DNA of 40,110 nt from a virus: IMG/VR virus record IMGVR_UViG_3300020469_000098, positions 1-40,110 of that record, one strand, 5' to 3'. Positions 23,914-37,202 of this stretch are shown piece by piece. The notes beneath the pieces are model-generated. The model was not told where the DNA came from and did not search any database. It saw nothing but the letters and a program-made list of their open reading frames with translations. Positions within the stretch are counted from its first letter, which is position 1. Each line of letters opens with the position of its first letter. Position numbers and translations under genes: made by a program.

Positions 23914-26900
23914 TTATTTCAATGCTAATATTAATGGTGTTAATTGTGCTTGTATTGCTCTATTGAAATCCCTTCCTCGTATTGTAGACGTAGTTTGATC
24001 AATTGTCAAACCGTCACCAATTCTAAAATTACCTTTTTGATCCGTACTTGTGAAAGGAACTTGACCACCATTAATGGCAACAACTTCATTTTCTGGAATT
24101 GGTTTTCCACCTTGGAATGGGTTAGCTGTATTTAGGTCTGTACCAGCACCAATATATTCAAATGAATGTGAACTGGTAATAATCCTACTCAACCTCACAA
24201 ACTCAACTGTTACCCCAGATTTAACAGGATATGGAATGAACTCATTAAATGTAACAGTTCCTGTACCAGTTCCACTATTAGCACTATCCGTAGACTCACT
24301 TATAGTAAAGTAAATTGGATCCATATTTGCTTCAGCAATTGCCGATCCACTACCAGAAATACTGATTGTTACAGTCTGAGTGGGTAAGAAATTTCTACCA
24401 CTAGCAATAACATCAACTGATTCAAGAGTTCCATCAGCAGCTACATTAGGAGAAAACTCAGCAAATATTGCTTCTGGACCTTCTGGTAAAGAAGCAGTAA
24501 CAATTGGTGGAGAAGAAGGACTATAATCACCTGGACTTCCAGCATTAGTAATCTTAATACTCCTAACCAACTGCATTGGTTGAGTTATTTGTGCTGTTGA
24601 TGCTGTATCATTATAATCACTCATATCTAGATGGAAATAAGCACCCTGCCCATCAAAAGGAGTTCTATAATTATTATCAATATCTTTTATTTGATCTATA
24701 ATAACAGCATCGGATTCACCATTTATAGCAGTATTCGTGGATCCAGTAAATTCAATATCACCAACACCATCAGCAACTAATCCAAAGTTACCAAAGGATG
24801 AGTTAGAGTTTGTTAAATCACATTGTCCACCAGTCTTACATGAAATACCAATGTCACATCCAATAGTAAAGATAGAAACTAACTGAGCATAAGCATTGTT
24901 TGTAAGAGAAACACCAATACCTGCTTCATTATATTGTGTAAATGAATCACAAACCATACTCTTAATATCTTGTCCTAGATTATTAGTACCAGTAAAATTG
25001 GCATCGGCATGATCACCATTAATCTTCATACCAATACTACCAGTCATAAAGTTAGTACAGTTTCTTACATAAGGCGATCTCCATCTACCACTTTCTCCCT
25101 CATTAGCGGGTCCAAGCACAGTGTATCCAGTGACTGCTTGGAAATCTGTTCCAGAACTTATAGATGCTTGAATTGGTGGGAAAGCAACCGCACCACAACC
25201 AACATGACCTGTAGCATGACTTGTTCCAGCAAAGTTTAGATTTTCAATTAAACAACCTCTTCTGACATGGAAAACATCTTTTGTTGGATTATCAGGAACA
25301 ATAGTAACTAATCTTAAATCTTCACCAGTTATAGTAACATCTGTTCTTAAACCAATAGGATTGTTTTCATTATAAACACCAGATCTGATTTTAATTGTAT
25401 CTCCTTCTTTTGCTATCTCAGCAGCCTTACCAATTGTTCTTACAGCATCACCTTCCAAGAAACCACTATTATTATCATTACCATCTCTTGTCACGTAAAT
25501 TATATTCTCTGTTTCTACTCCAGATGGTCTCCAAGAAACACCAACACCAATAGAAGATAATCTCCAATCATTCTTACCTGTAGCAGGATTAGGAACAAGA
25601 TTGTGATAATCAATTAGAGAACTTTCTAATTCTAAAGATCCGAATATCTTCGCATTCAACCCAACATTTAAATTCTTCTCAATACCAACACCACCTTCAG
25701 TGACTATAGATCCAGTATCCTTATCTGTTGATTGTGTAGGATCATCAACTGTTACCTTTCCACCAATATGTACCTTCTTAACAACACCTAAACCACCATC
25801 CAACTGAACAGAAGCACTTGTAGGACTACTAGCATCAGTAGATTCATTAAATGTTGCTAATCCATCTACGTCAAGTGTATTATTGAGAGTTGTAGCACCG
25901 TCAACATCAAGAGTACTATTAAGTGTTGTTCCACCATCAACATCAAGTGTAGCATTTAATGTGGTAGCATCATCTACATCTAACTTAGAATTTAAGAATG
26001 TATCACCATCTACCTCTAATTGAGAATCAAATTTAACATTATCAGTAGCATGTAAAGTTCCTGATATATCTAAGTCATATGATGGATTATTATTTTGAAC
26101 ACCAACCTTAGATAATCTAAAGATAGGAGCATTAGGTCCTGTTCCATTATATCCCCAATAACTTTGTGTATTGACATCCACAATCATTGTGGGGTTCTGA
26201 GGATTCTGTATAGGAGTTAATGTATCTGTTCCTATACCTAAACTATTAAATTCCTTAAAGTTAATAACTGAATATAACTGAGATTGATTTGATCCACCAG
26301 ATTGATTAGTTGTTAAAGTGCTTGGATAAGATCTTCCAGCACCCCACATAATTCTAACAGCACCACCAGCACCAGGACCACCAGGACCTTGATGAATTCC
26401 ACCATTTCCATATACATCTCTATCATGGTATCCCATACCACCACCGCCACCATAGGCTCCACCAATACCACCAGGACCATAAGATACATTTGGCACAGAA
26501 GCATCACCACCATCAACACCACCTGATCCTCCACCTCCACCATTACCACCATTATTAGCACTTTGACCACCAGCACCATCAGATCCTAGTCCATATAAAC
26601 CTACACCTCCTCCACCACCAGCACCATAACCACCAGCTCCACCTTGACCTCCACCACCACTACCAGCAGCAGCAGGATTACCAGTTGCACTCCAACCTGA
26701 TCCTCCACCAGCTCCATTATAACCACCAGCTCCACCACCACCTACTGTAGTATTTGAGGATCCCTGTCCACCATCACCACCATCACCACCAGTTCCAGTG
26801 ATTACTTGACCACCTTTACCCTTAGTTAGATTATTAGAATAACTAGCAGAATCACCACCTTCACCACCACCAGCTTCACAAAAATTAGTAACACTATCAG

Positions 26901-28047
26901 AGAAGAAACTATTACCACCATCTTGTCCAGAATAATTACTATAAGCAGGAACTGGTGCTATTGCACCAGCACCACCAGCACCAACTCTAATAGTATAAAC
27001 TGTTCCTGGTGTTACTGATACATTATTAGCAAATGCAAGAGCACCACCTCCACCAGCTCGTCCAGTGTAGGTAGTAACATTATTACCTACATTAGATCCA
27101 CCTCCACCAGCACCAATACATAAAACAGAAACCTGAGTTACTCCAAGAGGACATGTCCAACTATAAAGTCCTGGTGCTGTCCATTCTATTTGACCTACAC
27201 CACTATTAGTTCCAGATCCTACAGGAACATATGTACCTTCATCCTGTATTAAAATACCTTCTTGATCAATAGGTGATGCTTCTATCCATCTAATACCAGT
27301 AGCATCCCTATTTAAATAATAACCATTAACTCCTGGAGAATTAGCAGAATCAATTATATTTCTTTGTATATGAACACTACCATTAATATCAAGTTTTATT
27401 ATTCCATTCGCATTTGAATCATATAAAGGAACCGTTCCTGGTTCTTCAGATCCTATTCCAACTACACCACTACTATTAACAAAGAATGTTTCAAGAGGAG
27501 TATCATTAATTTGAAACTTACCTACAGGTAAAGTTGTTCCTATACCAACTCTACATGGATCTACTGTAACAGTTAAACATTTATTACCTAACCAACTAAG
27601 ACCTCTAGATTCAAATTGTACTCTTGGTTGGGTAGATCCGATTCCAACATCACCATCATGAGTAACAGAGAATGATGTAGATCCAGCACTAACTTGAAAT
27701 AAAGCATCTGGTTGTGTAGTACCTATACCAACTCTTGGTCCAAATTGTCCATCATCAGCGTTTTTTGGTTTAGATATGATGGTAACAACCGTTCCACCTA
27801 CACCTACATTAAGTCTATGCCTTACTGTTAGATAATCCGTATCTATCTCAGCATTTACTCTTACATCACCATTAAAAGTAGCATTATTATTGACAATTAA
27901 ATCATCAACACTTAATGCTCCACCATCACCACTTAACCCACCAACTAGATCAGCATATAATTTTCCATGAACATATACATCATTACTGAATTCAGTAACT
28001 TTATGGAATCTATTTTGACTCTGATCATCGTACTGTGGAAATGTCAT
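23914..28047 (-). CDS. Large glycine-rich and beta-helix tail fibre
   Basis: A 1377-residue fibre from the ATG at 28047 (MTFPQYDDQSQNRF), which has AGAGGA about nine bases upstream and overlaps the previous stop as ATGA. Domains in order: strand repeats with VGIGTTQPDALF; a glycine-rich domain (about 307-572) opening WTAPGLYSWTCPLGVTQVSV and closing GGAVRIMWG, which is the layout of glycine-rich phage adhesin domains; five 12-residue repeats of LDVDGATTLNNT (about 676-735); and a pectin-lyase-like beta-helix (NIIYVTRDGNDNNSGFLEGD). The C-terminal module contains SHSFEYIGAGTD and TDQKGNFRIGDGL. The last two domains have counterparts in the 1933-aa fibre. An upstream TTG (28068) is in frame but lacks support. 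Confidence 0.85.
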   Translation of the reverse strand: MTFPQYDDQSQNRFHKVTEFSNDVYVHGKLYADLVGGLSGDGGALSVDDLIVNNNATFNGDVRVNAEIDTDYLTVRHRLNVGVGGTVVTIISKPKNADDGQFGPRVGIGTTQPDALFQVSAGSTSFSVTHDGDVGIGSTQPRVQFESRGLSWLGNKCLTVTVDPCRVGIGTTLPVGKFQINDTPLETFFVNSSGVVGIGSEEPGTVPLYDSNANGIIKLDINGSVHIQRNIIDSANSPGVNGYYLNRDATGIRWIEASPIDQEGILIQDEGTYVPVGSGTNSGVGQIEWTAPGLYSWTCPLGVTQVSVLCIGAGGGGSNVGNNVTTYTGRAGGGGALAFANNVSVTPGTVYTIRVGAGGAGAIAPVPAYSNYSGQDGGNSFFSDSVTNFCEAGGGEGGDSASYSNNLTKGKGGQVITGTGGDGGDGGQGSSNTTVGGGGAGGYNGAGGGSGWSATGNPAAAGSGGGGQGGAGGYGAGGGGGVGLYGLGSDGAGGQSANNGGNGGGGGSGGVDGGDASVPNVSYGPGGIGGAYGGGGGMGYHDRDVYGNGGIHQGPGGPGAGGAVRIMWGAGRSYPSTLTTNQSGGSNQSQLYSVINFKEFNSLGIGTDTLTPIQNPQNPTMIVDVNTQSYWGYNGTGPNAPIFRLSKVGVQNNNPSYDLDISGTLHATDNVKFDSQLEVDGDTFLNSKLDVDDATTLNATLDVDGGTTLNSTLDVDGATTLNNTLDVDGLATFNESTDASSPTSASVQLDGGLGVVKKVHIGGKVTVDDPTQSTDKDTGSIVTEGGVGIEKNLNVGLNAKIFGSLELESSLIDYHNLVPNPATGKNDWRLSSIGVGVSWRPSGVETENIIYVTRDGNDNNSGFLEGDAVRTIGKAAEIAKEGDTIKIRSGVYNENNPIGLRTDVTITGEDLRLVTIVPDNPTKDVFHVRRGCLIENLNFAGTSHATGHVGCGAVAFPPIQASISSGTDFQAVTGYTVLGPANEGESGRWRSPYVRNCTNFMTGSIGMKINGDHADANFTGTNNLGQDIKSMVCDSFTQYNEAGIGVSLTNNAYAQLVSIFTIGCDIGISCKTGGQCDLTNSNSSFGNFGLVADGVGDIEFTGSTNTAINGESDAVIIDQIKDIDNNYRTPFDGQGAYFHLDMSDYNDTASTAQITQPMQLVRSIKITNAGSPGDYSPSSPPIVTASLPEGPEAIFAEFSPNVAADGTLESVDVIASGRNFLPTQTVTISISGSGSAIAEANMDPIYFTISESTDSANSGTGTGTVTFNEFIPYPVKSGVTVEFVRLSRIITSSHSFEYIGAGTDLNTANPFQGGKPIPENEVVAINGGQVPFTSTDQKGNFRIGDGLTIDQTTSTIRGRDFNRAIQAQLTPLILALK
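25842..26021 (-). repeat. Five tandem 36-bp repeats inside the 1377-aa fibre
   Basis: Five 12-residue units: LEVDGDTFLNSK, LDVDDATTLNAT, LDVDGGTTLNST, LDVDGATTLNNT and LDVDGLATFNES. The central three are nearly identical in DNA. The pattern of alternating hydrophobic and polar residues suits a triple-stranded beta shaft. Confidence 0.9.
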
Positions 28048-28580
28048 GTTGGCAGATCCTCTTGACAATGACTATTAGCATATGCTCTTTGTAATAGACT
28101 TCCACCAGATAACTGTCTTATAAAATAATTACCAGTTACTCCATGTCCATGAATCCTAGTTCCATATATGTCAACACTACTACATCCTGGTTCTCCAAGT
28201 TGTAAAGTATTGGATGATCTAATTTCAATATCCTCTGCTTCAAGAACTATTTTTCTACCTTTAATTAAAACTTCTCCACCACCTTTAGCAGTAAGTGCTA
28301 TCTGTCCACCATTAAAAGTACATAAAGTAATACCAACACCACCCTTACCTTCTTGATTACCATATATCTCTATAGCCTTATCATTAAATAATTGAAAATT
28401 ACCTCCATTCTGGAGTCCCATTATATTAGTATCACCACTATCAGTTGCCCCAAATAAATTATACACCATCTCCCCATTAAGACCCATCTGAGGATTTCCA
28501 GCGTCAATCCTAAAATTTGGGCTAAAGGAAATAAATTGCCTCTTTTGCCAGTTTTGTATATCAGAGGGTCTTTCTGCCAT
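28044..28580 (-). CDS. Baseplate spike-like beta-helix protein (gp5 C-terminal domain-like)
   Basis: A 178-residue protein. Residues about 75-140 have regular short strands (IALTAKGGGEVLIKGRKIVL, then EAEDIEIRSSNTLQL), like the triple-stranded beta-helix needle of T4 gp5 and VgrG. The N-terminal part (FISFSPNFRIDAGNP) and the Cys/His-bearing end (NSHCQEDLPT) are unassigned. It follows the gp5-like hub gene directly, behind a GATAAATA late element. T4 gp5 carries its OB fold and needle in one chain, so this gene may supply the needle half separately. It is not a PAAR protein by eye. The role is inferred from strand pattern and position. Confidence 0.6.
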   Translation of the reverse strand: MAERPSDIQNWQKRQFISFSPNFRIDAGNPQMGLNGEMVYNLFGATDSGDTNIMGLQNGGNFQLFNDKAIEIYGNQEGKGGVGITLCTFNGGQIALTAKGGGEVLIKGRKIVLEAEDIEIRSSNTLQLGEPGCSSVDIYGTRIHGHGVTGNYFIRQLSGGSLLQRAYANSHCQEDLPT

Positions 28581-30670: not shown

Positions 30671-31965
30671 TTTTCTTGTGGTCCGAATGTATCTCTAATT
30701 AATTCTAATGATGTATAAGAATTTTGAGTATCAAAATGATGACATAATGCCTTAATCATATATAGACCACTCTGCTGTTGATCTATATCAGATCTTTTTT
30801 CTCTATCAACTTTAGGAACTTCAACCTTAATAACATCACCAGCTTTCAAATTAGTGTTTGAAGGTATAAGCATAGTAACAACTTGCGTATTAATAAGATT
30901 ATATCTCATCATAGTTTGAGATTGAACTAAACCTGGATCAGCATTCAAAGCAGTAGAAACACCGACTTCTAAAGTTCCCATATCTAACACAGCAGTTATA
31001 TTTCTACTCGGAGATGATTTTAATTCTTCTGGAATTTGAGGTTTCTCACCTAAAGCAGTAAATTTTCCAGCATAATCATTATATGTAAACAATCCTTTAT
31101 CATATGGTGTATATTCAAAGGTCATAGGATTCATAAACATACGATGACTACAAAATGCTCCTTTTCTCAAGTTACCAATCAAATCCTGATTTCTATCAGT
31201 TGAGTACTGTAGAATATTAAAATCATTATTAGTCTTAACACTCTTCACAACTTCACTAAAGAAATATTCATATTCAGATGGTTTTTCAGAAACTAAATCA
31301 TCAACTGATCTATAGTTAAACCCATCTTTTGTTTCAAAGAATACAAATCCTGCGGTAGAATCATCTTCATTCTTAGATTTTGCCGAAACAGATTTAGATG
31401 CTAACCAAGTAATAATAGTAAATGGTTTTCTCATATTACCAATAAAACCATACTTATTCTGAGTTTTATCTATCTTCAAATTTTTATTAGTTTTCAAGTA
31501 CTCTTTAAGAATTTTTTCTACCGAATCTGATATAGCAGAAGAGGGAAACTTTCTACCAATTCTAGAAGTTTCATTCGTAATATTCTCTCTAGAACAAAGA
31601 TTTAATACAAAAGTTTCTTTACTAGTCTCACTCACAACATTAGTAATACTTTCCACATAAAGATATTTTTCTGGTTCATCTGAAAAATCTAATCCAGGAT
31701 TTGTTTCACTATTACCAGCAATTTTGAAAGATAGTTGTTCTCCACCCCTTAAAGGCAATCCATTATAAATTGACTGTAGTTTTCCTTCTGGACCTTCTAT
31801 AGCATCACCAGTACTCTGAACTAATGCCTTAGCAGTTATTACAGGTGAAAATATATTCTCAAAATATTCAAACATAACAGTTTTACCTTTAAGATCAACG
31901 GTATTTGATCCGTCTGCTGATCTTAATGTAAAATCTTCATATTGTGATGGATCTTTTGCTGACAT
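30667..31965 (-). CDS. gp27-like baseplate hub protein
   Basis: A 432-residue protein, close in length to T4 gp27 (391). It starts MSAKDPSQYEDFTLRSADG, with an early strand pair (GKTVMFEYFENIFSPVITA) typical of the tail-tube-like hub domain. The C-terminal part reads NLKAGDVIKVEVPK and SGLYMIKALCHHFDTQNSYT, the usual ending of phage hub proteins of the gp27/gpD/gp44 group. In T4, gp27 trimers form the hub ring between tail tube and gp5. It overlaps its neighbours on both sides (TAATG and ATGA), consistent with stoichiometric expression with the gp5-like partner. Confidence 0.78.
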   Translation of the reverse strand: MSAKDPSQYEDFTLRSADGSNTVDLKGKTVMFEYFENIFSPVITAKALVQSTGDAIEGPEGKLQSIYNGLPLRGGEQLSFKIAGNSETNPGLDFSDEPEKYLYVESITNVVSETSKETFVLNLCSRENITNETSRIGRKFPSSAISDSVEKILKEYLKTNKNLKIDKTQNKYGFIGNMRKPFTIITWLASKSVSAKSKNEDDSTAGFVFFETKDGFNYRSVDDLVSEKPSEYEYFFSEVVKSVKTNNDFNILQYSTDRNQDLIGNLRKGAFCSHRMFMNPMTFEYTPYDKGLFTYNDYAGKFTALGEKPQIPEELKSSPSRNITAVLDMGTLEVGVSTALNADPGLVQSQTMMRYNLINTQVVTMLIPSNTNLKAGDVIKVEVPKVDREKRSDIDQQQSGLYMIKALCHHFDTQNSYTSLELIRDTFGPQEK

Positions 31966-33437
31966 TATAAGTACGCTGTTGAAATAGCCTCTACGGCTAA
32001 CATATATTTATTTGCTTCACGAGAGGAAGAACTCTGAGTCATATTAGATCTCTTTGGAGTTGGTTTTGGTGCTGGTTTACTACCAGAACCACCAGACATA
32101 GAAGGTATGAATATAGTTTGTGGTAATCTATTTGTTTTAATCTTCTGATCTATAATTTGTTTAGACTCTTTAGCAATGTTTTTTAACTCAGGTATTATTG
32201 TTTTCTCTGCTTGCTGAAGCACATTAAATACTTCAGTAACCTTTTTCTCAATCTTTGGAAGTTCTCTTTTGAGAGACTCTTTCAATTTAGTTACAGTTTC
32301 TTCAAATAATTCTTCAGCCTCATCCTCAGTAACAAATCCCTTCTCCTCCTGTACCTGTCTAACAAGAGTGCGATATAATTGATTTGCTGCTTTCTTCTTA
32401 GTAAGATTACTCTGTTCTGTATTCGCAATAATTTTTTCTATAAATTCAACACCATAAGTTTTAACACTATCAGCAGGAATAACTGCTTCATCCTTATGAA
32501 GATATGCTAATCCATCTTTCTTAACCTTTGATGTTCCATCCTTATACATTTCAAAACCACTATCTTCACCAGGATCTAGTTTAAATTCTTCATTAGTATC
32601 TTTCTTAGTTAAATCTTCTTCTTTTGGTGTAGTTTTAGTCCCTTCGACTTCATTTTTCTTTTTATCATCCTCTTTCGGTTTTTCATCTTTTTTATCATCT
32701 TCTTTTGGTGGTTCTTCTTTTGGTGGTTCCTCTTCCTCTTTCTCTTCCTCCATCCCCATATCATCTTCAAACTTACCAAGCATTTCCTCTGCTTTATCTA
32801 GACCCATTTCGTCAGTCTTAGTCATATTAAAGGCTTCTTGTTCAAGATCCCTACTTAATTTATTGAATCCTAGATTAATATCATTAAAAGTCTCTTGTAT
32901 CTTTGCTTGCTCATCAAAGAATAATAAATTTTTAATCTGATCAAGGGTCGCAGTAACTGCTCCACCAATCTGACTAAAAATCCCAAATACATCACTGAGA
33001 AATCCAGTAAACATACTAACTACTCTTTTAATAAATCCAATTAATTGACCAATTCGTTTTAAAATTGATGGTAAAGTAGTAACTGCCCACCCAATTAAAA
33101 GTATACCAAAGAAATCTAATATTCTACCAAGAAATCCTTTAGTACTCCTGAATATATTTTTTTGTAAGAAATTAGTTGGTCCTACAGAACTAGATGCTTC
33201 AATCATATCTTCACGATCTTTCCTTCTAATATTCTGTAATCTTTTACTAAAAAATGAAGAATCTTGACGTATTAATTTTCTTTTACCTCTAATATTTTTA
33301 TTAGTTTGTTGACTAACAAAATTGGATGATTTAAATGCAGATGATAAAGATTTAGAAACATTGGATAATGATTGCCCAATCTTTCTAATACTAACGGTAT
33401 TCTTAGATAAAAATCTTACTGTTTTCTGCTGTGCCAT
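31965..33437 (-). CDS. Tape-measure-like tail protein (second of two)
   Basis: A 490-residue protein. A basic N-terminal region (about 1-80) is followed by a hydrophobic stretch (about 102-165) with the motif LDFFGILLIGWAVTTLPSI. Then comes a Glu/Lys/Pro low-complexity linker (about 226-290) and helices to the end. YLHKDEAVIPADSVKTYG (about 311-328) resembles the 'H..EaVvP' box common in tail tape-measure proteins. The FF.ILL.GW motif is shared with the 500-aa protein just upstream, suggesting a duplicated or split tape measure. T4 gp29 has 590 residues. The ATG comes four bases after the neighbour's stop. The role is inferred. Confidence 0.55.
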   Translation of the reverse strand: MAQQKTVRFLSKNTVSIRKIGQSLSNVSKSLSSAFKSSNFVSQQTNKNIRGKRKLIRQDSSFFSKRLQNIRRKDREDMIEASSSVGPTNFLQKNIFRSTKGFLGRILDFFGILLIGWAVTTLPSILKRIGQLIGFIKRVVSMFTGFLSDVFGIFSQIGGAVTATLDQIKNLLFFDEQAKIQETFNDINLGFNKLSRDLEQEAFNMTKTDEMGLDKAEEMLGKFEDDMGMEEEKEEEEPPKEEPPKEDDKKDEKPKEDDKKKNEVEGTKTTPKEEDLTKKDTNEEFKLDPGEDSGFEMYKDGTSKVKKDGLAYLHKDEAVIPADSVKTYGVEFIEKIIANTEQSNLTKKKAANQLYRTLVRQVQEEKGFVTEDEAEELFEETVTKLKESLKRELPKIEKKVTEVFNVLQQAEKTIIPELKNIAKESKQIIDQKIKTNRLPQTIFIPSMSGGSGSKPAPKPTPKRSNMTQSSSSREANKYMLAVEAISTAYL

Positions 33438-33441
33438 ATAT

Positions 33442-34944
33442 CTATGCTAACGCTGGTGAAATATTAAACATCTTATATGAGATATAAACATGAAGATTTG
33501 TTGGATCAACTGCTGCTATCATAGGGTATCCTGTTGCGGATCCACCTTTAACTCCACCCTGTTGTTGATCTCCACCACCATCAGAACTGGGCATTGGTAC
33601 AACCACTGGAGGTAACTCTGGTTCTTGTCCAATAGATGACATATCCATATCTCTTTTGGATCTTAAATTCTTAATATCCTTTATTTCATTCTTTGGTGTT
33701 ATTTTTGACTCTAAAGTTTTTATACGTTCTCCATACTGATCATTATAACCATCTAATGCTTTTTCAAATGATTTAGCACCAGATCTTCCAGTACCAAAAT
33801 CATCTCTTTCTGGTTTTTGTAATTTTATTTCGTTGAGTAAATCCTGATCACTTATAGGTGACATCATGCTAGGCATAATATTACCATCATCAGATGGTGT
33901 AACACCTTGTTTATTTTTTTGTATTGCGTTATCTACCTGCTGATATCCAATATTAAAACCAACAGTGTTTAATATGAATGCAGTAAATTTTGGCCAGAAT
34001 CCAGGTGCCGTAGTTAAAGATCTAGTAAGTAACTGAGTAAGAGTAAGTGTAGTCATTCCACCAGTTGCTGCTGCTAAACTTTCTCCTGCTGGTTTACCAG
34101 CATAAGTATCAAGACCAAAACTAATAAGTCCAGCAGAACCTACACCAAGAGTATTTTGCAGCAATCCACTTTTTGGATTTACAGAACCAGGTTTTGGAAT
34201 ACCTCCTCTTCCAAGAGATCTAAATGGATTTTTCAACCCTCTCAAAAATGCTATAGATGCTCTTGTAATCATATTTCCAAGCATCCTTATAGGAGTTATG
34301 AAAATCTTATTACGACCAAACCTACCAATCCTAAGACCTATTACACCTAATGTTAAAAGAACACCTTTAAATGCTAATTTAAATGACAGTAAAACAGCAG
34401 CTATTGTACCTAATGTTCCAATAACATTACGTGCTAATTTATTTAATGCTACCTTATTACCATCAGCCAAAAATCCATAAGCTTTTATTAACTTATCACC
34501 AAGCCATCCAGTTAATAATATAGTAAAGAAATTTGCTAATTTACCCAACCCAAATTGAGTTTTCTTGCCTAGAGATCTAAGTGGAGAAAATAAAGCATTT
34601 TGTATTCCTTGTTCAATTATACCTTCCTTTCCCTTTCTTAATCCTTGTTGTGCTGCTTGTCTTTCTCTCTGTGCCTCTGCTTCTTCTCTTTGACGATCTA
34701 ATTGTGATTGAACTGCTAAATTGGATCTAATAAGAGATAATGAAAATGTTAATTGATTTACTTGACCTGATATATTCTGTAAACTTTGAGATACATTATT
34801 CAAAGATAAACTATTCTGAGCTATTATATTATCAGATATACTATCATTAGGTGGAGCTACAGCCCTTCCCGTAAACGCTGAAGAAGATACATTTCTTCTA
34901 ACAGCTCTTATTCCTCCTGCTATTGGCGATGATAGTTCAGCCAT
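33442..34944 (-). CDS. Tape-measure-like tail protein (first of two; gp29 candidate)
   Basis: A 500-residue protein. The N-terminal 130 residues are helical with a strong coiled-coil stretch (SQLDRQREEAEAQRERQAAQ). Two hydrophobic segments follow, about 134-160 (LANFFTILLTGWLGDKLIKA) and about 171-205 (IGTLGTIAAVLLSFKLAFKG), as in tape-measure proteins that enter the host membrane. It lies immediately after gp26-gp51, exactly where the tape measure sits after the two assembly chaperones in lambda-type tails. Its ATG lies inside the end of gp51 (eight-base overlap). T4 gp29 is similar in size. The call rests on topology and order rather than on recognised residues. Confidence 0.6.
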   Translation of the reverse strand: MAELSSPIAGGIRAVRRNVSSSAFTGRAVAPPNDSISDNIIAQNSLSLNNVSQSLQNISGQVNQLTFSLSLIRSNLAVQSQLDRQREEAEAQRERQAAQQGLRKGKEGIIEQGIQNALFSPLRSLGKKTQFGLGKLANFFTILLTGWLGDKLIKAYGFLADGNKVALNKLARNVIGTLGTIAAVLLSFKLAFKGVLLTLGVIGLRIGRFGRNKIFITPIRMLGNMITRASIAFLRGLKNPFRSLGRGGIPKPGSVNPKSGLLQNTLGVGSAGLISFGLDTYAGKPAGESLAAATGGMTTLTLTQLLTRSLTTAPGFWPKFTAFILNTVGFNIGYQQVDNAIQKNKQGVTPSDDGNIMPSMMSPISDQDLLNEIKLQKPERDDFGTGRSGAKSFEKALDGYNDQYGERIKTLESKITPKNEIKDIKNLRSKRDMDMSSIGQEPELPPVVVPMPSSDGGGDQQQGGVKGGSATGYPMIAAVDPTNLHVYISYKMFNISPALA

Positions 34945-35116
34945 TCGATGCTTGTTGTGCTTTTAAATTTTCTTCTTCAATATACTGTTGTAAAAGAGTT
35001 AAATAAATTTCTCTTTCCCAAGGCATCATATTTTCTAGCTCTGTTAAGCTATATTTATGGTGCTGCATGAGGGCAAAGTTAATTTTATAGTATGACGCAA
35101 GATCTTCATGCGACAT
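34937..35116 (-). CDS. 51: gp51-like baseplate hub assembly / tape-measure chaperone
   Basis: A 59-residue ORF, MSHEDLASYYKINFALMQHH, then KYSLTELENMMPWEREIYLT, then a polar helix. 'L..Y....F.l....yS..ele.M.PWEReiY..ll...' is the conserved pattern of T4 gp51-type and lambda T-like chaperone segments. It begins two bases after the gp26 stop in the -1 frame and overlaps the next gene by eight bases. It has no clear Shine-Dalgarno of its own. It is small enough to be missed by length filters. It may be made both alone and as a fusion to gp26 by frameshifting at 35125-35131. In T4, gp51 is needed for hub assembly and absent from the particle. Confidence 0.82.
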   Translation of the reverse strand: MSHEDLASYYKINFALMQHHKYSLTELENMMPWEREIYLTLLQQYIEEENLKAQQASNG

Positions 35117-35118
35117 AC

Positions 35119-35838
35119 TTACCCGAAAAAACTCTGTAATCCCTCCAAAACGATTTCACTTTCAACATCCGTGTTTGGATTTTTTACCTTAACTTTATGA
35201 GAAAGTTTTGGCATAGTATCAAAAAACTTCTCAACATCCTTAAATTGTTTAGAGCTTAATCCCTCAACAAAATCGGACAATTCCTTCTTAGTACAATCAG
35301 ATGCTGCCCAAGATTCTTCTTCAGAATATACTTGGTCAACACAAGAAGCAATTAAATCAAAGGTATCATCAACACCTAAATCGCCACCAGAACTTAAATT
35401 TGATTTGACAAATTCATTTAAAGAAGGATACTTCATTGTCATTGTATATTGATCATCTAATTTAATGTTTTTAGAATGATCTTTATCAATATGAACTTTG
35501 ATCTCATCAAGATGAATTACAGTAGGAACTTGTGTCTTCTCATCGTCAGGACAAGTAACCATAATCTCAATATCTTCACCAACAGATTTTCCTCGTATAT
35601 TAAGGAAAATATATTCAATATCAAATGTAGATAATTTATCTACTCGTATACCCTTTGAGAGTATACAAGATCCAATAACATCCTTAACAGCATTTGCTAT
35701 TTGTTTTGGATCTTCACTTTCCATCGCAAGAATTAAAATCTTCTCTTCCTTTACTAAGAAAGGTCTGAATTTTACTTTCTTCTTAGATGAAGGTATAACC
35801 AACTCATAAGTAGGTGTCGAAATCTGTGGTAAAGGCAT
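35119..35838 (-). CDS. 26: gp26-like baseplate hub protein / tape-measure chaperone
   Basis: A 239-residue member of the T4 gp26 baseplate family. It starts MPLPQISTPTYELVIPSSKK and continues VKFRPFLVKEEKILILAMES. The 'P.S.k.v.FRPFLVKEEK.LL.A.Es' block is characteristic. The middle has a strand region with YIFLNIRGKSVGEDIEI and a helical C-terminal half with FVEGLSSKQFKDVEKFFDTM. It is driven by a late element 21 bases upstream. Its last codons are AGT TTT TTC GGG TAA, holding a T TTT TTC slippery heptamer in the correct phase, so a gp26-gp51 fusion of about 300 residues could be made. The position before the tape-measure candidates fits a chaperone role. Confidence 0.88.
   Translation of the reverse strand: MPLPQISTPTYELVIPSSKKKVKFRPFLVKEEKILILAMESEDPKQIANAVKDVIGSCILSKGIRVDKLSTFDIEYIFLNIRGKSVGEDIEIMVTCPDDEKTQVPTVIHLDEIKVHIDKDHSKNIKLDDQYTMTMKYPSLNEFVKSNLSSGGDLGVDDTFDLIASCVDQVYSEEESWAASDCTKKELSDFVEGLSSKQFKDVEKFFDTMPKLSHKVKVKNPNTDVESEIVLEGLQSFFG
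35125..35131 (-). other. Putative -1 ribosomal frameshift site joining gp26 to gp51
   Basis: The minus strand reads T TTT TTC (35131 to 35125) with TTT and TTC as zero-frame codons: a canonical X XXY YYZ heptamer, two codons before the gp26 TAA. After a -1 slip the next codons are CGG GTA AGT ATG, and that ATG is the gp51 start. There is no intervening stop. I see no convincing strong stem just downstream. Confidence 0.6.
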
Positions 35839-35876: not shown

Positions 35877-36719
35877 TTAATTTGTATTTGATGGGGTTGA
35901 ATTATTATTTGCGTCAGTCAAGTTATTATTACCAGTAGTAGAACTATTAGTCTTTAAAGATGAAGATACTTGCTTTGGCCAATTATAACTAACACCCATT
36001 CCTTCACGTAAAGGATTTAAAACATCAGCCATATTATTATATGGTCTAAGATTATACATATTACTCTCTTCTGGTCCAAAATTCAAATCTCTACCTGCTT
36101 TCTGAGATAATGATGATGTTTCTCCAGAAATGTATCTATCATAATGAAAAGAACAAGTTGCCTTCAATACATTTGAATTTTGATATTGAACTCTTGTAGA
36201 ATTTAATGCTAGTGGAAATAATCCAATAAATTTATATTCTAAAAACTGTCTGTGATTCTTTTCAAACTTTATAATTCTAGTTTCATTTGACTTATAATAA
36301 TCTGGATATCTCATTCTAAAGTGATAGGCATTCTCTTGAGGTCTTTGACCACTAGATCCACTAATATACTCCATCCAATGCTCTAAAAATCTAAGAGACT
36401 TATATCTATTATCAACATAAAACTCTAAATCAATCTGAGTGAATTGTCTGGTATGTGCCATCTTTTCAATAACACCCTGATATTCTCCTCTAACATCAAG
36501 AGTAGCAAAAGAACTTCCTGGTATAGAAGCACCACTACACAATAATCCGATATCAGATAGATCAAATCTATCATCAATACCCTTAGATCTTAAATGCGTA
36601 GTTAAAGGATATGCTCCACCACTAGGCAAAGCAAACCTAACCAAATAATTGGATGTTTGAGCAACATTCTGAAATGTCGGTAATATCTGTGATATTTTCT
36701 TTGGAAATGGAGCTGGCAC
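35877..36719 (-). CDS. 54: gp54-like baseplate tail tube initiator
   Basis: About 280 residues from the GTG at 36719 (MPAPFPKKISQILPTFQNVA). It has the layout of the gp54/gp48 tail-tube-initiator fold: SNYLVRFALPSGG, LCSGASIPGSSFATLDVRG, and FTQIDLEFYVDNRYKSLRFL followed by EHWMEYI. In T4, gp54 sits on the hub and starts tube polymerisation. An in-frame ATG at 36785 would add 22 residues (starting MRWLIFSF), but it lies upstream of the late promoter (36746-36753) and inside the gp4 gene, so it would not be on the transcript. The GTG is the only start left between promoter and conserved region. It has no clear Shine-Dalgarno. Confidence 0.8.
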   Translation of the reverse strand: MPAPFPKKISQILPTFQNVAQTSNYLVRFALPSGGAYPLTTHLRSKGIDDRFDLSDIGLLCSGASIPGSSFATLDVRGEYQGVIEKMAHTRQFTQIDLEFYVDNRYKSLRFLEHWMEYISGSSGQRPQENAYHFRMRYPDYYKSNETRIIKFEKNHRQFLEYKFIGLFPLALNSTRVQYQNSNVLKATCSFHYDRYISGETSSLSQKAGRDLNFGPEESNMYNLRPYNNMADVLNPLREGMGVSYNWPKQVSSSLKTNSSTTGNNNLTDANNNSTPSNTN

Positions 36720-36727
36720 TCTAAATA
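36720..36727 (+). promoter_or_regulatory. Late promoter element for gp4 (TCTAAATA, plus strand)
   Basis: TCTAAATA, 25 bases before the gp4 ATG. With the minus-strand element at 36746-36753 it forms a perfect inverted repeat (TCTAAATAG ... CTATTTAGA). The predicted start is near 36733. Confidence 0.65.
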
Positions 36728-36745
36728 GTTTTATTATATCATATC

Positions 36746-36753
36746 TATTTAGA
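36746..36753 (-). promoter_or_regulatory. Late promoter element for gp54 (TCTAAATA, minus strand)
   Basis: TCTAAATA on the minus strand, ending at the first base of the gp4 ATG and lying 26 bases upstream of the gp54 GTG. It faces the plus-strand element across 18 bases, so the two transcripts should overlap at their 5' ends. Confidence 0.65.
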
Positions 36754-37202
36754 TGGCTTACAAAGGAAAATATCAACCATCTCATCCACGAAAGTATAAA
36801 GGTGATCCTACAAATATAACTTTTAGGTCATTATGGGAACGTAAATTTATGAATTGGTGTGATCAAAATACTAATGTTCTAGAATGGTCAAGTGAAGAAA
36901 TTATTATACCTTATCGTGGTCCTGATGGAAAACCACACCGATATTTTCCAGATTTTTATATGAAGCAAAGACAAAGTGATGGAAAAATTAAAAAATATGT
37001 TATTGAAGTAAAGCCACTAAAACAATGTAGTCCACCTAAAAGACCAAAACGTCAAACTCCAGGTTATATCCGTGAAGCATTTGAATATGCTAGAAATCAA
37101 GCAAAGTGGACAGAGGCAAGAGAATGGTGTGCTGATAGACAATTAGAATTTAAAGTCATCACAGAAAAAGAATTAGGTATAAGTTATGGCAAGAAGAGCT
37201 AA
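36753..37202 (+). CDS. 4: gp4 head completion nuclease
   Basis: A 149-residue match to T4 gp4 (150 residues). It starts MAYKGKYQPSHPRKYKGDPT with the family's RSLWERKFMNWCD block. The TnsA-like nuclease residues are visible: the Glu in LWER, the Asp in RYFPDFYMK, VIEVKP (ExK), and Gln in RNQAKW. In T4 this protein (gp4/50/65 head completion) trims or prepares packaged DNA and the portal for tail joining. It begins the plus-strand late run and overlaps the next gene by 17 bases. Confidence 0.92.
   Translation: MAYKGKYQPSHPRKYKGDPTNITFRSLWERKFMNWCDQNTNVLEWSSEEIIIPYRGPDGKPHRYFPDFYMKQRQSDGKIKKYVIEVKPLKQCSPPKRPKRQTPGYIREAFEYARNQAKWTEAREWCADRQLEFKVITEKELGISYGKKS

Follow-up and report, generated by a model that had tools for sequence, protein, structure and literature searches.

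Genes 26 and 51 of a T4-like phage and its relatives are probably a single gene decoded in two ways

Introduction

The frameshift cassette of the Escherichia coli dnaX gene consists of an internal Shine-Dalgarno (SD) sequence located about 10 nucleotides (nt) upstream, a slippery heptamer, and a downstream stem-loop, and the slip site of the lambda G/GT pair is G_GGA_AAG. Vladimirov and colleagues are said to have found frameshifting to be conserved in several groups of T4-like phages, the T4 genes 26 and 51 reportedly encoding the two forms. The lambda G/GT pair is an established case, as is its conservation among long-tailed phages (Xu et al., 2004). Tail assembly chaperone (TAC) genes of T4-like phages were identified by Vladimirov, Gautam and Davidson (Virology 2022;566:9-15), and texts drawing on that work state that a short gene occurs together with a longer, fused one in some T4-like phages (PMC10885494, from Virology 2022;566:9-15) and that T-run frameshift signals occur in the TAC-N genes of T4-like phages (PMC12846349, citing Virology 2022;566:9-15). 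T4 gp26 and gp51 themselves have been described as hub assembly chaperones, gp51 being needed for assembly and absent from the particle (PMC3004832). The present study deals with gp26 and gp51 in the IMG/VR virus record IMGVR_UViG_3300020469_000098, the whole 40,110 bases of which are called the window below: a preliminary description of this sequence had proposed that the two genes are joined by a -1 frameshift, as in lambda G/GT.

Organization of the gp26/gp51 junction

The following elements, all on the minus strand, were identified in the window.

35119..35838 (-): gp26, short form (TAC-N), 239 aa; Pfam T4_baseplate PF12322 (E 6.9e-75), phrog_150 (E 3.7e-81)
34937-35116 (-): gp51 open reading frame (ORF), 59 aa
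35141..35146 (-): internal SD-like sequence GGAGGG, the GGAGG core of which ends 10 nt before the heptamer
35125..35131 (-): slippery heptamer T_TTT_TTC, its final C separated from the gp26 stop by one codon
35119..35121 (-): zero-frame stop TAA of gp26
35089..35119 (-): predicted stimulatory hairpin AGTATG.CGCA...TGCG.CATACT, starting 5 nt past the heptamer, with the gp51 ATG in its 5' arm
34937..35125 (-): -1 frame extension RVSM..., the gp51 / TAC-C domain, 62 aa past the slip; phrog_634 (E 3.4e-28)
34937..35838 (-): predicted frameshift product gp26-gp51 (TAC-NC), 300 aa, colinear with T4-type gp51 across the junction

The 3' end of gp26 reads AGT TTT TTC GGG TAA, and the elements of the junction follow one another in the order GGAGGG ATTACAGAG TTTTTTC GGGTA AGTATG. 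The heptamer T TTT TTC claimed to end gp26 in the canonical phase is indeed present at 35125-35131, and the path said to lead into gp51 is open, the -1 frame being translated as FF-RVSM- with no stop until 34937. The fusion, previously put at about 300 residues, was computed to be 300 aa long, 238 of the 239 gp26 residues preceding the slip. The upstream SD-like site and the downstream hairpin had been overlooked in the preliminary description.

The PF12322 profile matches gp26 with a score of 251.9 bits (cut-off 24.5). Since gp51 also matches positions 238-278 of phrog_150, this gp26 profile already includes fused proteins. The genes of the window contain 62 in-phase XXXYYYZ sites in 12,957 codons, and that of gp26 is the only one located at a gene end (within the last few codons). 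The features by which a frameshift cassette is recognized are all present at this locus: a conserved in-phase X_XXY_YYZ site, an open -1 ORF conserved as protein, and stimulatory elements consisting of the upstream SD-like sequence and the downstream structure. The three-part layout resembles that of E. coli dnaX, from which the gene, the heptamer, and the outcome differ. Judging from these sequence data and the comparisons given below, gp26 and gp51 very probably constitute one gene decoded in two ways via a programmed -1 slip.

According to the mechanism proposed, most ribosomes would stop at the gp26 TAA and yield the short chaperone TAC-N of 239 aa. A minority of them would be held at T_TTT_TTC by the 16S anti-SD sequence bound to the GGAGG 10 nt upstream together with the hairpin 5 nt downstream, would slip back by one base while Phe-tRNAs occupy the P and A sites, and would append the 62-residue gp51 domain, giving the long form TAC-NC of 300 aa. 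By analogy with lambda G/GT, the role of the short forms may be to coat the tape-measure protein, and that of the long form to recruit tail-tube subunits; in T4, the two forms would correspond to gp26 and gp51, made as separate proteins. The occurrence of the slip, its rate, and the chaperone function are inferred.

Conservation of the slippery site

The junction reads NNT TTT TTC in 81/81 members of the close-relative set, which comprises the window and 80 relatives whose gp26 is 67-95% identical. Among the 171 loci of a larger, cyanophage-type set, the site is TTTTTTC in 168 and TTTTTTT in 3, and the -1 frame is open over 57-68 codons, save in two truncated contigs. When these loci were clustered at 85% DNA identity, giving 101 clusters which are still related and the counts of which do not amount to independent events, the Phe codons at the site were found to be TTT in 101/101 and TTC in 100/101, as against a TTT:TTC ratio of 73:27 in the remaining part of gp26. 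The base preceding these codons is T in 101/101 clusters (versus 60.5 expected), while the codon to which it belongs varies (AGT, TCT, GCT, AAT, or GAT).

The same heptamer ends gp26 in Aeromonas PX29, Vibrio D490, KVP40, Stenotrophomonas BUCT608, Variovorax V45v66, and Cronobacter LPCS28, and T7 variants of the site, with a run of seven T, were identified in Caulobacter Cr30, Sinorhizobium phiN3, and Pseudomonas pf16. A scan of viral contigs using the V45v66 gp26 gave no match. The preliminary description had suggested checking in relatives whether the heptamer, the phase, and the open -1 path are kept; all three are, both in every close relative and in distant groups of T4-like phages. Since the codon usage of the same gene differs and the site spans distant groups, these data argue strongly for selection acting on the slippery site at the nucleotide level.

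Upstream and downstream elements

An element of the GGAGG/GAGGG type ends 9-10 nt before the heptamer in 74/101 clusters, most of the others showing weaker AGGA or AAGG forms. The Glu codon at this site is GAG in 74/98 cases, versus a usage of 29%. The mean anti-SD energy amounts to -6.8 at this position and to +0.45 (standard deviation 1.9) over positions, and its best mean value, -6.90, lies beyond every synonymous-codon resampling (mean -5.25, standard deviation 0.21, most negative -5.77). The pairing between the SD-like element and the heptamer given by RNAalifold was discounted because the columns involved are nearly invariant for other reasons.

The folding of the 60 nt after the heptamer was compared with that of dinucleotide shuffles. 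The mean z value is -2.3 in 100 clusters, with control offsets ranging from -0.7 to +0.7; it amounts to -2.55 in the window-like clusters, a set chosen by its possession of the gp51 ATG, and to -1.55 in the others. The pairing of the hairpin is maintained in 91.5% of the cells in 59 window-like clusters, and the covariation score exceeds those of all 500 shuffles and all the slid versions. The pair 39-53 occurs as GC in 19, UA in 19, and AU in 14, position 39 falling on the wobble base of a -1 frame Ala codon.

T4 gp26 and gp51

In the T4-type phage HY126, gp26 (208 aa) matches PF12322 and ends at the would-be slip site. The gp51 of this phage (250 aa) lies on the other strand; its residues 1-201 match PF12322 (E 4.6e-59), its match to PHROG 150 spans positions 13-281 of 282 (E 4.7e-89), and its C-terminal part matches PHROG 634. 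A profile of the predicted fusions aligns across the junction to T4-type gp51, its alignment to T4 gp26 stopping at position 239. Two copies of PF12322 are present only in HY126 and Aeromonas avDM4, and one copy in all 19 other genomes counted, none of which has a full-length gp51 as a separate gene. The profile alignments and the PF12322 copy counts thus identify the short form with T4 gp26 and the long form with T4 gp51. The pair of forms sharing their N-terminal part is thus encountered either as a frameshift architecture or, in T4, as separate genes. T4 gp26 and gp51 are homologous to the short form and the fusion, respectively, but differ from them in being two divergent genes without any slip site.

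Two PF12322 genes that have diverged, gp26 and gp51, occur in T4-type and Tulanevirus phages (L089:2195-3615; L208:1253-2656), duplication replacing the frameshift in these phages.

A variant without the heptamer in distant phages

A gp51-like extension of 50-59 residues was also found in the -1 frame in Ackermannviridae (22 loci), Vibrio D506, and Pseudomonas Cygsa01, with matches to PHROG 9633/634 in 2050H1, SJ2, and D506. The junction is NTT TTC in these phages, with no heptamer, and a nearby start codon is absent from the extension in most of the Ackermannviridae loci. Judging from its sequence, such a junction would need a tetranucleotide slip or some other mechanism. In Ackermannviridae and Vibrio D506, the extension is located at L090:3238-3399, L093:3259-3426, and L086:3220-3396 and is also present in L183-L200; it is unannotated in the records examined (L090, L093, L086), and annotated in Cygsa01.

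Alternatives to a frameshift at the junction

In 38/170 loci, no ATG, GTG, or TTG is present in the -1 frame from codon -2 to codon +10 around the stop position (L118, L123, L126-L129, and L132 are examples), and frameshifting is the sole evident route to gp51 in these relatives because a start codon is absent nearby. A separate gp51 gene as the only route was rejected on these grounds. The idea that gp51 is a separate small gene, expressed by termination and reinitiation at TAAGTATG, and that the heptamer arises incidentally from the conservation of a Phe-Phe end is in line with records such as that of P-SSM2, in which two genes are annotated, and with the ATG found directly past the stop in the window-like relatives, the retention of which does not bear independently on its use, either way, because the set was selected by it. 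It is nevertheless highly improbable in view not only of the relatives lacking a usable start, but also of the choice of TTT TTC and the preceding T, which are fixed while other codons vary, the SD-like element and hairpin flanking the heptamer, the location of the ATG within the hairpin stem, and the fact that T4 gp51 is itself the fused form. Slippage of the RNA polymerase on the T6 run, giving mixed mRNAs, would also account for a change of frame at a junction which does carry six T; but the run is short, Z is C in 168/171 loci, which is the signature of tandem tRNA slippage, and the phase, the SD-like element, and the hairpin suit ribosomal slippage, so that this explanation is extremely improbable and was rejected as the main route. 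Lastly, both modes might operate in the clade of the window, where frameshifting would give TAC-NC and reinitiation a free gp51 domain. This is compatible with one gene decoded in two ways, and the window-like clade has the ATG along with the full frameshift cassette; the ATG doubles as stem sequence, however, so that its retention is no proof of use, and the sister lineages manage without it, which makes a dual mode unlikely.

Some observations weigh against a single gene decoded through a programmed slip. In the window, the gp51 ATG is located two bases past the stop, and free gp51 could for this reason also be produced by reinitiation. Only 2 of the hairpin pairs are changed on both sides, a number reached by 38/500 shuffles, and the covariation rests mostly on a single pair. 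No consensus hairpin was found in the S-SM1 clade, where the folds are weaker and lineage-specific, and a single hairpin common to all the cyanophage-type relatives was rejected on this basis. As regards function, the AlphaFold model of gp26 (pLDDT 87) matched no PDB fold at E <= 0.001, and a fold search in the PDB with T4-type gp51 yielded no useful match. Beyond the programmed slip itself, a fuller picture may be drawn, in which gp51 is no gene of its own, the internal SD and the heptamer are the fixed parts of a three-part cassette whose hairpin is rebuilt in each lineage, and Ackermannviridae, Vibrio D506, and Pseudomonas Cygsa01 keep the -1 extension without the heptamer, slipping at NTT_TTC by another route; we give it an even chance of being right as a whole.

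The gp51 start also varies among the window-like loci: in L055, L056, L064, and L065, CCCTCTCCC replaces the ATG region past the gp26 stop, and gp51 starts without ATG. The gp51 domain is unannotated in S-CAM4, ACG-2014d, and LPCS28 (L203:1507-1686; L204:1507-1695; L207:2229-2393), and a resemblance of the KVP40 gp51 ORF to the C-terminus of T4 gp51 is already remarked on in the KVP40 record.

Relation to known systems

The frameshift between gp26 and gp51 put forward in the preliminary description is supported by the comparison, many relatives having no gp51 start and T4 gp51 being a continuous homolog of the fusion. It would be correct but not new in kind, because the lambda G/GT and T4-like cases have already been published. 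The likeness to lambda holds as far as the logic and the position of the genes are concerned, since gp26/gp51, like gpG/gpGT (Xu, Hendrix and Duda, 2004), lies between the tail tube gene and the tape-measure candidate; descent from lambda G and sequence homology with it are not shown, and the site here is T_TTT_TTC accompanied by an SD-like element and a hairpin. The T4-like TACs of Vladimirov et al. belong to the same family, with gp26/gp51 as TAC-N/TAC-NC. A literature search on a slippery site in cyanophage gp51 turned up no paper. The additions over the published work are the anatomy of the SD-like element and hairpin and the unannotated heptamer-less version in Ackermannviridae.

In many cyanophages gp51 is either omitted or listed as a hub assembly catalyst in its own right, and this reading would put right the annotation of what is a core tail gene. 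With T4 gp26/gp51 tied to a single frameshifted gene in relatives, the question of gp51 therefore becomes that of the role of the long chaperone form, and the cyanophage and vibriophage relatives, including lineages in which frameshifting is apparently obligatory, provide natural test material.

Proposed chaperone function and neighboring genes

The gp26/gp51 proteins probably act as tail assembly chaperones, as suggested by the position of the family, the published work on T4, and a weak structural hint. The latter comes from the top-probability fold matches of the gp26 model, none of which is significant: the HK97 TAC 2ob9 (0.51), 3fgx (0.47), and 3klu (0.20), the last two of which are XkdN/YqbN-like proteins, a tail assembly chaperone family. 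A sequence search in the PDB gave no match. The neighboring genes are as follows.

35877-36785 (-): tail tube gene, upstream of gp26; phrog_45 (E 4e-34)
33442..34944 (-): next gene, 500 aa, tape-measure candidate by position, overlapping gp51 by 8 nt
31965-33437 (-): 490-aa gene after the 500-aa gene; weak tape-measure PHROG match (E 4e-4)

The earlier claim that a tape-measure candidate follows gp51 is plausible but unconfirmed: the 500-aa gene at 33442-34944 had no family match in Pfam or PHROG profile searches, and a profile search against T4 gp29 and the downstream genes of other phages gave no confident match for it. The 500-aa and 490-aa genes are paralogous (E 3.9e-8), and 31965-33437 and 33442-34944 may possibly form a duplicated or split tape measure. 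Elsewhere in the window, positions 23914-28068 encode a long protein of 1384 aa, which contains a glycine-rich domain (PF21722, E 3.2e-5).
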